This document shows positions 31,308-35,228 of a stretch of 50,699 bases of DNA, piece by piece (positions within the stretch are counted from its first letter, which is position 1; every line of letters begins with the position of its first letter). The stretch covers positions 1-50,699 of the IMG/VR virus record IMGVR_UViG_3300032931_000563; one strand, given 5' to 3'. Source of the DNA: a virus. Under the pieces are notes generated by a model that saw only the letters and a list, made by a program, of their open reading frames with translations, did no database searches and was not told where the DNA came from. Made by a program: the position numbers and the translations under genes.

Positions 31308-31637
31308 TCATCTCTGGCGCTCCGGTAGTTCCATGTCGTTTGGGATAACCCACTTTTCAAACCGGCCCGCGTGAATTAGGGCAACGCCAGATTGGAGCAG
31401 CTTGTTGACATCGAACACCCGTTGTATCGCGGTCAGGAAATCAACCAGTTCCTCCTGAGAACGCTGCCCTATCTCACCGTCCAGATCCGAGAACATGGAC
31501 AGGAAACCGATGCGGGCAAGATTGCAGAGAACGAACAACTCCAGATCGGAGACTTTCGTCTTCTTGCCTGAGTTCTTCAGAGACATGCTTTCACCCTCAA
31601 GTGCTGCGCCTATGGCGATTCTTCGTTTTTCCTCCAT
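31308..31637 (-). CDS. helical protein, unknown
   Basis: 109 aa from the ATG that shares a base with the previous stop (TAATG). Helical, with SLKNSGKKTKVSDLELFVLCN and IGQRSQEELVDFLTAIQRVF. Nothing in it points to a catalytic role. It follows the DUF1064-like nuclease and is coupled to it, so an accessory role in DNA processing is possible but not shown. Confidence 0.58.
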   Translation of the reverse strand: MEEKRRIAIGAALEGESMSLKNSGKKTKVSDLELFVLCNLARIGFLSMFSDLDGEIGQRSQEELVDFLTAIQRVFDVNKLLQSGVALIHAGRFEKWVIPNDMELPERQR

Positions 31638-32119
31638 TAGATTCTCCAATCGGTTAGGTAGGTGACGTGGTGAACATATTTGCTGGCGTTGTCGAGCAGG
31701 ATGCGTTGTCGAATGGCGCTCTTGCTGCTGCCCCTTGGCTCGCGTGGCAGGACAAGGACCAACTTCACTTCGGGGTATCGCTTGGCCATGCGACGGTACT
31801 TGGTGACATCCTTCTGGCGCAGGCCGTTGGTGGATTTGGTCTCGTAATACACCTCTTCTTCGTTGTCTGCCCACAGGAATCGAAAGTCTGGCGTGTAGGA
31901 GCACGTCCCGCGGCGGATGTCATCAAACCAGAAGGTCTTCGGTTCATATTCCACTTCAAGGACAGCCCCCGTCTGCTGGAGCCGTTGCCCGATGGTGAGG
32001 AAACGCACTTCCACCTGGCTCTTGAGGTACACGCTTTTTCCGTTGACTACCTCATGCTGCCCGCGTGCCCGGCCGTAGGGGATGTGATCAGTCAAGTGTT
32101 GCTCGTAGCCCATCTTCAT
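31637..32119 (-). CDS. DUF1064-like PD-(D/E)xK nuclease
   Basis: 160 aa; ATG overlaps the stop of the methyltransferase C-terminal frame (ATGA). The order VYLKSQVEVRFLTIGQRLQQ, LEVEYEPKTFWF, CSYTPDFRFL, EEVYYETKSTNG, KRYPEVKLVLVLP fits DUF1064-type phage nucleases. Catalytic candidates are the Asp of TPDF and the Glu/Lys of YETK. Such proteins are thought to resolve Holliday junctions or branched DNA before packaging. Confidence 0.75.
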   Translation of the reverse strand: MKMGYEQHLTDHIPYGRARGQHEVVNGKSVYLKSQVEVRFLTIGQRLQQTGAVLEVEYEPKTFWFDDIRRGTCSYTPDFRFLWADNEEEVYYETKSTNGLRQKDVTKYRRMAKRYPEVKLVLVLPREPRGSSKSAIRQRILLDNASKYVHHVTYLTDWRI

Positions 32120-32690
32120 GCTTGCGCCTCAAAGATTCTGAATAACACAGTCCATGCTTTAGCTGCTTGTGCCGGCACAACGCCATTTCCCAAAAGCCTC
32201 AAACGATCAACTCTTTGCGCCATCCCTGAGTGCCCCAGGTTCCTTGGTTCAAGTGCTCCTTCGTGTGACACTTCTGACAGAGGGCTTCTACATCGTTCGG
32301 TCTGCCCTGAATATCGGGATGATGCCTCTGTACTCGAATCGCCGCGCCACAACGAATACACTGCGTTACCTTGATCGTCCGATTGCATCTTCGCCGTGCT
32401 GTCGCCTTGCACGGCTTGGGAAGAATCTTCGCTTTGCGGTAACAGTCGCGCCCGCAATATTTCGCCCTGAGTCGGTTCTTGTCTGAAATTGGTTTTCCGC
32501 ACACACGGCACATCGGTTGTGCTGGATTCGCGTTCTGCTTGCCCACCCCGACAGCCCTGCACTGCCGACTGCAAAATCTCTTTCGGTTCGCGAGGCACGG
32601 CACAACTCGGATCATCTTGCCGCACGTTTCGCACGGCTTCATCAATACGTGTCCATCCATTTGGAACTCCCATTAACTGTTCAACCCAAT
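32116..32690 (-). pseudogene. C-terminal part of the cytosine methyltransferase, other frame
   Basis: Begins (in this frame) where the N-terminal frame stops: LNPDWVEQLMGVPNGWT is typical of the C-terminal part of phage cytosine methyltransferases, and VDRLRLLGNGVVPAQA near the end is motif X. Both are needed for a complete enzyme, yet they lie one base out of phase with motifs I-VIII. The frame is open much further upstream (to a GTG at 33684). Its end couples to the nuclease gene by ATGA. Between the two motifs the DNA also encodes an HNH-like protein in the third frame. It is either a broken gene, or one joined by frameshifting. Confidence 0.6.
32199..32660 (-). CDS. HNH-like zinc-binding protein nested in the methyltransferase locus
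   Basis: 153 aa. Three zinc-ribbon units follow each other: CETCGKMIRVVPC with CSRQC, CRVCGKPIS with YCGRDC, and CIRCGAAIRVQRHHPDIQG with CQKCHTKEH. The last has the HH and CxxC layout of HNH-family nucleases in phages. It begins directly after the GVPNGWT segment of the methyltransferase frame and stops just before motif X, so it is probably an inserted mobile-type gene. Start ATG has no strong ribosome site. Confidence 0.7.
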   Translation of the reverse strand: MDGHVLMKPCETCGKMIRVVPCLANRKRFCSRQCRAVGVGKQNANPAQPMCRVCGKPISDKNRLRAKYCGRDCYRKAKILPKPCKATARRRCNRTIKVTQCIRCGAAIRVQRHHPDIQGRPNDVEALCQKCHTKEHLNQGTWGTQGWRKELIV

Positions 32691-33682
32691 CAGGGTTCAG
32701 CTTCAATGACTTTGAACCATGTCCCCTCACATCTTGGATCAGATGATTCTGCCCGTGTTCTGCATAATTGCAATTCTCCGCCCTGATCATCCCGACGTTT
32801 GGAGTACACCACAGTCCTTGGTTCTTCCCACTCGTATTGAGGCTGTCCGGGGCCTGCGGGCCATCGGTCAACGAAACCATGTTCGTCAATCTGTCCCCCG
32901 GCGCGTCGTGACCCCTCTGGCTCTGCCCTTTGTATTCCGAGTGCTGGGGCGTCAGCCACAGTACCGCCGTTTGCAGGTCTATCCCCCCGCTGTCCGGCCT
33001 GCTGTCCTTGCTCGTCTGGGATTCGCAACCGCGATTCGGGACGTTCGGAGTCGGCCACTGAACCTGCTGAGTCAACCCGCACTGTGCCAGCCGACCCGTT
33101 TCGCTGTCGTACATCCTCGCGCCTATCGCACCCTCCAGACGATCCACTGATACTCCCGGCTCCTGCACGGCAGGACTTCGCCATGATAAACAGTCGCTCC
33201 CGCTTGTGGGGTGCGCCGACCTCTGCCGCTGTAAACAGTCCTGCCTCAACCGAGTAACCCATGTCTCGTAGGCTTCGATAAACTGAGGGGAATCCAAGGG
33301 TAAGGTGTCCGGGTACATTTTCGAAGAAGCAGCAAAGAGGCTCAACTGCCCGCACGATTGCTGCAATATGCGGCCAAAGGTGTCGAGGGTCGTTTTCGCC
33401 TTCCCGCTTGCCGGCAACGGAGAAGGGCTGGCAGGGATATCCGCCAAAGATGAGGTCCACTTTTCCGTGAAAATCCGTTCCTGGGAAGGTTCTAAGATCG
33501 CTCCAAATCGGGGCAGGGTCAAGAAACCCGCCTTCCATGCGCGACGCCAGAACCGAGCAGGCGTACTCTTCAATCTCCGAGTAAGCGACGACTCGCAGAC
33601 CTGGAAGCACTCGGTGGAGCCCCAGTCCAATGCCCTCATACCCGGAACACAACGAGATTGCAGTGATTTCGGGAGAATCCAC
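32690..33682 (-). CDS. DNA cytosine-5 methyltransferase, catalytic part
   Basis: 330 aa from GTG (GAGGTAAGT just upstream); a longer TTG start at 33760 overlaps the previous stop. Motif I SLCSGYEGIGLG (residues 10-21), motif IV GGYPCQPFSVAG with catalytic Cys84, motif VI FENVPG (120-125), motif VIII HKRERLFI (159-166). Then a variable region typical of these enzymes (VADSERPESR, TVADAPALGIQR, RWPAGPGQPQYEWEEPRTV). It stops before motif X, which lies one base out of frame downstream. Likely protects phage DNA from host restriction if the two parts are joined. Confidence 0.75.
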   Translation of the reverse strand: MDSPEITAISLCSGYEGIGLGLHRVLPGLRVVAYSEIEEYACSVLASRMEGGFLDPAPIWSDLRTFPGTDFHGKVDLIFGGYPCQPFSVAGKREGENDPRHLWPHIAAIVRAVEPLCCFFENVPGHLTLGFPSVYRSLRDMGYSVEAGLFTAAEVGAPHKRERLFIMAKSCRAGAGSISGSSGGCDRREDVRQRNGSAGTVRVDSAGSVADSERPESRLRIPDEQGQQAGQRGDRPANGGTVADAPALGIQRAEPEGSRRAGGQIDEHGFVDRWPAGPGQPQYEWEEPRTVVYSKRRDDQGGELQLCRTRAESSDPRCEGTWFKVIEAEP

Positions 33683-33756
33683 ACTTACCTCTTGCCTCCC
33701 ACTTGCTCGCTCATTATGTGGTCCCTTCAAAGAGTGCCATTTGGCCCGCTCGCGCC

Positions 33757-34305: not shown

Positions 34306-34416
34306 TCAATCGAACAATCGACCATCGGTTTCGTCGCCCCGGCGTGGAGCCGGCCAGTCACGAAGGACGGTGAGACAATCGCCTACCAAAATCTGGTTGA
34401 TCGGCAGGTCAGTCAT
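34306..34416 (-). pseudogene. remnant of an N6/N4 DNA methyltransferase
   Basis: 36 aa. The segment LPINQILVGDCLTVLRDWP is the usual start of phage adenine/N4-cytosine methyltransferases (family form xINxIxxGDCLEVLxxLP), after which DPPY-type motif IV is expected. Here the frame ends 18 residues later without it. The ATG is coupled to the replisome gene by ATGA. It seems that a deletion removed the rest; the short peptide may still be made. Confidence 0.55.
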
Positions 34417-35228
34417 GCGTACAATTCCTTCACTTTCTGGGGCAGATGGTTTGAGCAGTAGTAGTGGTCGTATGCTCCACTTGCGTCCTTGTAAACGGCC
34501 GGCATTCCGCACCCGTCTCGCGAGCAGGTCCTGCCCGCAATGGGGAACAGCCGTGTTTTACCCGACCCGACCGCCGATTCTCGCTTGTGCTTGCGGTCCC
34601 AACTGAGGATCGTGTGGTAGTGCGACTTGTACTTGTAGCCCTTCGATCCGATGCCGTCGTTCAATTCCTGGATGCGGTCGGCCGTGCCTTCCTCTCCGAA
34701 TTCTGCTACCAGGGCTGCGTGCTGAGTATCTGTAAGTGACACAAATTCCAGGTACTTACGTTTCGGTTCATCCTCTCCGTCTGGAGATTCCGGTTCTTTA
34801 ACCGTTACAGAACCGTTGCTTAACTCCGTACTCCCTTCGAGCTGCTTTTCCTTCTCCATTCCCTTTTCCATTCCCTTCTCCATAGGGGGTGCAGGGGGAA
34901 TTTTACTTTCAGCTTCAGTATGATGAGGTTTCTGGTGGTCATCCCATGCCACGATCTGGATGTAGTGTTGACCATCGACTACATAACGGTTAATGAACGG
35001 TCTTCCTGATGATGGTTTCGACTTGGACAGTAGTTCAAGGCACCGTTCTACCTTGAAGTTATCGTAGGGGAAGATTTCTGCTTTGAGCCTTGTGGGTCGA
35101 TCTTGAAGTCTTCCGGACTTGTCAGCTTGACACCACAGGCCGGCATAGAATAGTCGAACCTCTGGTGACAGCGCGGCCAAATCTTCATCTTTGAAGAAGT
35201 CTGGTTTCAGATAGCGGATACGGGCCAT
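34413..35228 (-). CDS. phage replisome organizer (lambda-O-like)
   Basis: 271 aa from ATG with ACCGAGAG upstream. The N-terminus ARIRYLKPDFFKDEDLAALS, then PEVRLFYAGLWCQADKSGRL and PTRLKAEIFPYD, is diagnostic for phage replisome organizers, which bind the origin and recruit host helicase. A linker with the repeat MEKGMEKGMEKEK divides it from a C-terminal half with CSRDGCGMPAVY and YYCSNHLP (zinc-knuckle-like). A dedicated promoter and hairpin lie just upstream. Having this gene and no polymerase implies use of the host replisome. Confidence 0.82.
   Translation of the reverse strand: MARIRYLKPDFFKDEDLAALSPEVRLFYAGLWCQADKSGRLQDRPTRLKAEIFPYDNFKVERCLELLSKSKPSSGRPFINRYVVDGQHYIQIVAWDDHQKPHHTEAESKIPPAPPMEKGMEKGMEKEKQLEGSTELSNGSVTVKEPESPDGEDEPKRKYLEFVSLTDTQHAALVAEFGEEGTADRIQELNDGIGSKGYKYKSHYHTILSWDRKHKRESAVGSGKTRLFPIAGRTCSRDGCGMPAVYKDASGAYDHYYCSNHLPQKVKELYA
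34798..34883. repeat. iteron-like repeats inside the replisome gene, origin candidate
   Basis: Three near-identical 11-12-base units of the form TTCCCTTYTCCA lie at 34848-34883 (coding for the MEKG repeats), and AACCGTT occurs twice at about 34800-34818. In lambda-type phages the replication origin is a set of iterons in the middle of gene O, just as here. Whether these repeats bind the protein is inference; Glu/Lys coding repeats could also arise by slippage. Confidence 0.4.

Follow-up and report, generated by a model that had tools for sequence, protein, structure and literature searches.

A locus on the minus strand of the window, by which we mean the whole 50,699-nucleotide stretch of viral DNA analyzed (positions 1 to 50,699 of IMG/VR record IMGVR_UViG_3300032931_000563), appears to specify an orphan phage C5-cytosine methyltransferase composed of two polypeptides encoded by a single DNA segment. 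We assign this reading a probability of about 0.84. The two polypeptides, named alpha and beta here, would both be translated and would form a complex with methylation activity. The features of the locus are as follows.

32690..33682, minus strand: alpha subunit, 330 aa, frame A, GTG start, TGA stop; motifs I, IV, VI and VIII
32116..33684, minus strand: beta subunit, 522 aa, GTG start, frame B, which is +1 of frame A
33679..33684, minus strand: double start GTGTGG, read from the sequence; beta GTG at 33684-33682, alpha GTG at 33682-33680
32199..32660, minus strand: HNH/zinc-finger nuclease ORF in frame A+2, matching phrog_2308 and phrog_2340 at ~1e-6
32131..32214, minus strand: motif X, RVDRLRLLGNGVVPAQAAKAW, in the beta frame in the window (HMM 1e-15)
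31637..32119, minus strand: next gene, a putative nuclease with a weak TnsA-N/Holliday-junction-resolvase-like match, given for context only

The upstream part of the locus is covered by alpha and beta, and the downstream part by another gene pair, beta and the HNH ORF. The beta stop codon overlaps the start of the putative nuclease gene (32119-31637) within the sequence ATGA. The first-pass annotation of this DNA had described the two open frames (alpha stop at 32690, beta 33684-32116), the split of motifs I-VIII into frame A and of LNPDWVEQLMG and motif X into frame B, and the ATGA coupling to the nuclease gene, all of which agreed with our check of motifs and frames. The HNH/zinc-finger ORF (32660-32199), which overlaps the C-terminal part of beta, had been missed. 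No partner nuclease for the methyltransferase was recognized within the part of the window examined. Orphan phage methyltransferases usually protect phage DNA from host restriction, and by analogy the present enzyme probably shields the DNA of its phage in the same way.

Profile searches matched alpha to Pfam DNA_methylase (5e-34) and phrog_363 (1e-51). In addition to motifs I and VIII, alpha contains PCQ as motif IV, ENV as motif VI, as in C5-cytosine methyltransferases, and a conserved WPAGPGQPQYEWEEPR block. Motifs IX and X are absent from the frame A product of the window, and the alpha TGA stop falls within the beta codons for LNPDW. The AlphaFold model of alpha has pLDDT values mostly above 85 for residues 1-176 and low confidence after residue 177, and a Foldseek search with this model returned M.HhaI and M.HaeIII as top matches. 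The predicted fold, like the motifs, indicates that alpha is the catalytic part of a C5-cytosine DNA methyltransferase, which would bind AdoMet and carry out catalysis by means of motifs I-VIII.

Beta matched phrog_1008 (‘DNA methyltransferase’, 4e-22) over residues 73-348, almost wholly inside the overlap, so that the database searches supported the earlier suggestion that both frames are methyltransferase-related there. Its N-terminus contains a MWILPK box followed by the WPTP region, and motif IX, LNPDWVEQLMGVPNGWT (LNPDWVEQLMG), is read from 32700. Motif X, RVDRLRLLGNGVVP, is also on the window beta (beta HMM score 402 bits), and motifs IX and X of the window enzyme were both found on this chain. 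No Pfam or NCBIfam family was matched by beta at an E-value of 0.001 or better, a search of solved structures gave no meaningful match, and the window beta used as a direct protein query against viral contigs gave no match; relatives in viral contigs were reached only after switching to an alignment query. Modeled alone with AlphaFold, beta had a mean pLDDT of 53, with low confidence except in helical segments that include motif IX, as might be expected if beta folds on its partner. Beta would supply the variable WPTP region together with motif IX and, by joining alpha, would complete the DNA-recognition side of the enzyme. A one-chain relative, locus L189, carries GGFPCQ, ENV, LNPAWVEQLMG and LGNAVVP in a single ORF, together with the WPARPGEPQYEYEHPR block that belongs to alpha in the two-frame family. 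Its LNPAWVEQLMGYPDGW aligns with KLHPRECARVMGYPDSY of M.HhaI with a weak segment score, and beta motif IX is linked to that M.HhaI segment through this relative.

A search of all fetched loci with alpha and beta profiles identified 164 distinct alpha-bearing loci, window included. Beta was present in frame A+1 in every one of the 164, with a median alpha/beta ORF overlap of 1070 nt (range 291-1584). Since many loci had been fetched with the alpha query alone, beta was no precondition of this count. The overlap is present in the annotated phages C75C1, C72C1, Leyra, BcepC6B, SEN5, Haboob, ABMM1, Lc-Nu and R9.1, most of which list alpha alone; the records of Leyra and further P. larvae phages list beta as well. 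The first-pass annotation had not recognized this large family and had proposed a frameshift arising from sequencing or nature, a two-subunit enzyme or programmed frameshifting. The second of these proposals is supported here. The A/A+1 layout recurs in 163 further distinct loci, which come from independent assemblies, and this in practice rules out a sequencing error. For one single-frame gene to have been split in two by a sequencing or assembly indel, or by natural inactivation, is very unlikely; with the ~1 kb A/A+1 overlap in 164/164 loci, the two-frame reading cannot be an error.

In the window, the beta and alpha GTG codons lie 2 nt apart and share one base (GTGTGG), with candidate Shine-Dalgarno sequences GGGAGG (33700-33695) and AAGAGG (33693-33688). 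Start codons were tallied in the 127 loci whose match to the beta profile extends to position 3 or lower, and beta position 1 was a start codon in all 127 (ATG 111, GTG 12, TTG 4). An alpha GTG was found two bases downstream of the beta start (ATGTGG) in 115/127 loci. This group alone proves little, because Met-Trp always makes GTG in the other frame. Several other loci provide better evidence, as beta begins there with ATG-ACA-TGG and the alpha start becomes ATG, so that the alpha start is preserved by a different sequence. An additional in-frame alpha ATG is present 9-15 nt upstream in some loci. Both chains would initiate at one site from adjacent starts sharing a base, and ribosomes reaching this site would produce both without frameshifting.

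An alternative is that alpha alone is translated and that beta stays open as a side effect of alpha composition and conserved motifs, and some of the beta conservation does sit opposite conserved alpha motifs. This was addressed by holding the alpha protein and codon usage constant, shuffling synonymous codons and counting stops in the other frames. Frame B of the window contains 0 stops over 330 codons compared to 4.6 expected, and none of 400 shuffles was stop-free, in a region that is bounded by the beta ORF and hence conditioned on beta. The family test made no reference to beta; its region began at the alpha HMM start and stopped 40 nt short of motif X. Where motif X is on alpha (150 loci), frame A+1 contained 18 stops where 706 were expected (about 40-fold depletion) and was stop-free in 140 loci, compared to about 10 expected. 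Frame A+2 of the same 150 loci displayed no such deficit, with 2207 stops and 2288 expected. Beta identity between the window and eight relatives was 0.40, and 0.23 after synonymous shuffling of alpha; similarity in the A+2 control frame was likewise raised (0.33 compared to 0.22 shuffled), which makes the similarity test weak and places reliance on the stop-codon test. Part of the beta similarity may accordingly reflect double constraint or shared ancestry. Translation of alpha alone is highly improbable given the stop depletion, which is missing from the other frame, the conserved beta start codon and the presence on beta of motif IX, which is missing from alpha and present in one-chain relatives.

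Of the 164 loci, 150 carry motif X on alpha, 6 carry it on beta and 2 have it in frame A+2; in the remaining 6 it was not found. The loci with motif X on beta (the window, L015, L075, L095, L102 and L125) require six changes on the alpha tree, in which many branches are weakly supported, and motif X appears to have moved repeatedly. In L005:3005-3996 and other two-frame loci, the same bases are read as motif IX (beta VGWTDLD) and as the start of motif X (alpha RVDRLRL).

Programmed +1 frameshifting, in which a slip on CCC at CCC TGA would fuse motifs I-VIII to motifs IX and X, has little to recommend it and was rejected on codon comparison. The alpha stop lies in the context CCC TGA TTG, and a +1 slip would yield a product reading EPDWVEQLMG. 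However, the Pro codon CCT, which gives the alpha TGA within LNPDW, occurs in 0/31 LNPDW loci with motif X on alpha and in 2/5 loci with motif X on beta (small numbers), a bias expected if alpha need no longer reach motif X. Moreover, alpha of L015, L095, L102 and L125 ends far upstream near EWEEPR, without such a site, and the slip product would be devoid of the beta WPTP region. Frameshifting is unneeded and not conserved, since beta possesses a separate, conserved start and most alphas run past motif IX to motif X.

Motif X appears to lie in frame B of the window only through the HNH insertion, a point absent from the first-pass annotation. The LNP-to-LGN distance is typically 62 nt with a frame change in uninserted relatives, and 507 nt in a single frame in the window. 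The excess of 445 nt is 1 mod 3, and the added DNA contains the HNH ORF. L011, L095 and L035 also carry HNH ORFs at this junction, homologous to that of the window (blastp E 4e-29 to 5e-9), giving 4/164 loci with an HNH insert between motifs IX and X. As determined from ORF and motif positions, the excess is 0 mod 3 in L011 (327 nt) and L035 (564 nt), where motif X is on alpha, and 1 mod 3 in the window (445 nt) and L095 (526 nt), where it is on beta. In all four loci the HNH ORF is +1 of the frame reaching motif X, and that frame is open throughout the HNH ORF. The window beta has 0 stops in 153 codons through the HNH gene compared to 6.2 expected, and 0/1000 shuffles were stop-free; the host frame of L095 has 0 compared to 8.2 expected (0/1000 stop-free), and that of L011 has 0 compared to 3.2 expected (P 0.006). 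On the alpha tree, the three HNH-bearing loci examined require two changes, indistinguishable from shuffled labels. A group I intron around the HNH ORF was considered unlikely, as the 462-nt ORF is itself longer than the 445-nt insert.

From these positions and frames, motif X of the window appears to have been shifted from alpha to beta by a nuclease gene in the third frame. The HNH gene, possibly introduced by homing of its nuclease, would have entered out of frame between motifs IX and X and, as the inserted length is 1 mod 3, would have brought motif X into the frame of beta. Reading of beta through the HNH gene would create a linker of ~150 residues to motif X, giving an enzyme composed of alpha (I-VIII) and beta (IX-X). 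We infer that the insertion itself produced the frame change; the alternative is a later 1-nt indel. In favor of an indel, the alpha end and the motif X frame set the window apart from its nearest relatives, and comparison with L011 indicates that a 1-nt change near 32690-32640 would also shift motif X. Such a change could account only for the motif X placement in the window, not for the overlap; furthermore, L095 independently has beta running through the HNH gene to motif X, and frame B is open through the HNH gene beyond chance.

It is also conceivable, though unlikely, that the window copy is decaying, the HNH gene having broken the continuity of alpha with motif X, with an inactive enzyme and a residual open frame from beta to motif X. 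The window alpha has lost motif X and ends early, and the IX-X linker is long and predicted to be disordered, so the window copy could be impaired. Against decay stand the absence of stops in the 153 host-frame codons through the HNH gene (6.2 expected) and the occurrence of motif X on beta without an insertion in L015, L102 and L125. The two-polypeptide reading can be extended to a more general proposal, to which we give even odds: a selfish HNH gene at the IX/X junction would reassign motif X between overlapping subunits according to its length mod 3, and the shared-base starts would allow one ribosome-binding site to set the subunit ratio.

Several known systems resemble the window enzyme. 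The small-subunit gene of M.EcoHK31I overlaps the large-subunit gene in another frame. M.EcoHK31I (target YGGCCR) has motifs I-VIII and X on its large chain and motif IX on its small chain, and M.AquI (target CYCGRG) has motifs I-VIII on alpha and IX-X on beta (PMC3404938). The M.EcoHK31I partition is that of 150/164 loci, and the window shares with it a motif IX on a separate polypeptide in another frame. Judged by motif partition, the window differs in having motif X on beta rather than on the large chain. It also differs in that beta includes the WPTP variable region, whereas the recognition domain of M.EcoHK31I is predicted in the large chain, and in that the two starts are separated by 2 nt and the overlapping genes are nearly coextensive. 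By the same measure the window matches M.AquI, as do L015, L102, L125 and the phages Gadost and RemusLoopin, the last two having two separate genes with motif X on the second (beta). Unlike M.AquI, the window genes overlap by ~1 kb in different frames and have an HNH gene between motifs IX and X. Second methyltransferase genes nested in the +1 frame are also found in Streptococcus phage MM1 (pneumophage orf13/orf14, annotated as ‘C5 methyltransferase alpha subunit’ and ‘beta subunit’) and Paenibacillus phage Leyra (gp61/gp62), but their betas are shorter and start inside alpha (the annotated MM1 beta is only about 140 aa), and no HNH gene is present.

A hidden HNH gene in a phage methylase, out of frame and with the host frame open through it, has been described in ShiLan (Arsenault et al. 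2025, PMC11855218). The arrangement in the window is similar, with an HNH ORF out of frame in a phage methylase and a stop-free host frame. ShiLan gp70 is, like L189, a single chain with motifs I-VIII, IX and X in one frame. In the window, by comparison, the host gene has two overlapping frames, the insertion site is the IX/X junction, and the insertion length would determine which subunit receives motif X.

Two-polypeptide C5-methyltransferases (M.EcoHK31I, M.AquI), the MM1 alpha/beta pair and hidden HNH insertions were already known. To the extent that our searches of the open-licence literature could show, what is new is that alpha and beta overlap coextensively throughout the family and share a double start, that motif X appears to have migrated from one subunit to the other, and that this migration is associated with a hidden HNH gene. 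Two subunits that are coextensive over ~1 kb represent an extreme case of overlapping genes, conserved in 164 loci, and beta is often not annotated separately in phage records. The enzyme occurs in single-chain, split and overlapping forms, which makes it possible to study overprinting together with the partition and re-partition of subunits in one enzyme. The locus also adds a new host gene for hidden HNH elements, one in which frame bookkeeping has a visible consequence.

Additional observations were made at individual loci. L053 and L073 contain 8 and 14 alpha-frame stops, respectively, between the alpha profile and motif X, and none in A+1, possibly because alpha has decayed or motif X was wrongly paired. 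L007:3346 has one alpha stop between motifs I and VI with beta intact, common to two contigs of the same virus. In L016:2941-4715, motif I is broken by an insertion with nuclease-like sequence (MNDATKELTASQRYHLSHKND...), the alpha N-terminus runs in frame into the beta C-terminus, and motif X is in A+2; this layout is either another frame rearrangement or an indel error. In L012, a methyltransferase gene with the N-terminus MDLPVNRIICGDCLEVMKDWPDN... adjoins alpha. A short ORF in the window (34306-34512, minus strand; MTDLPINQILVGDCLTVLRDWPAPRR...) resembles this N-terminus, breaks off after ~25 residues and is possibly a remnant.
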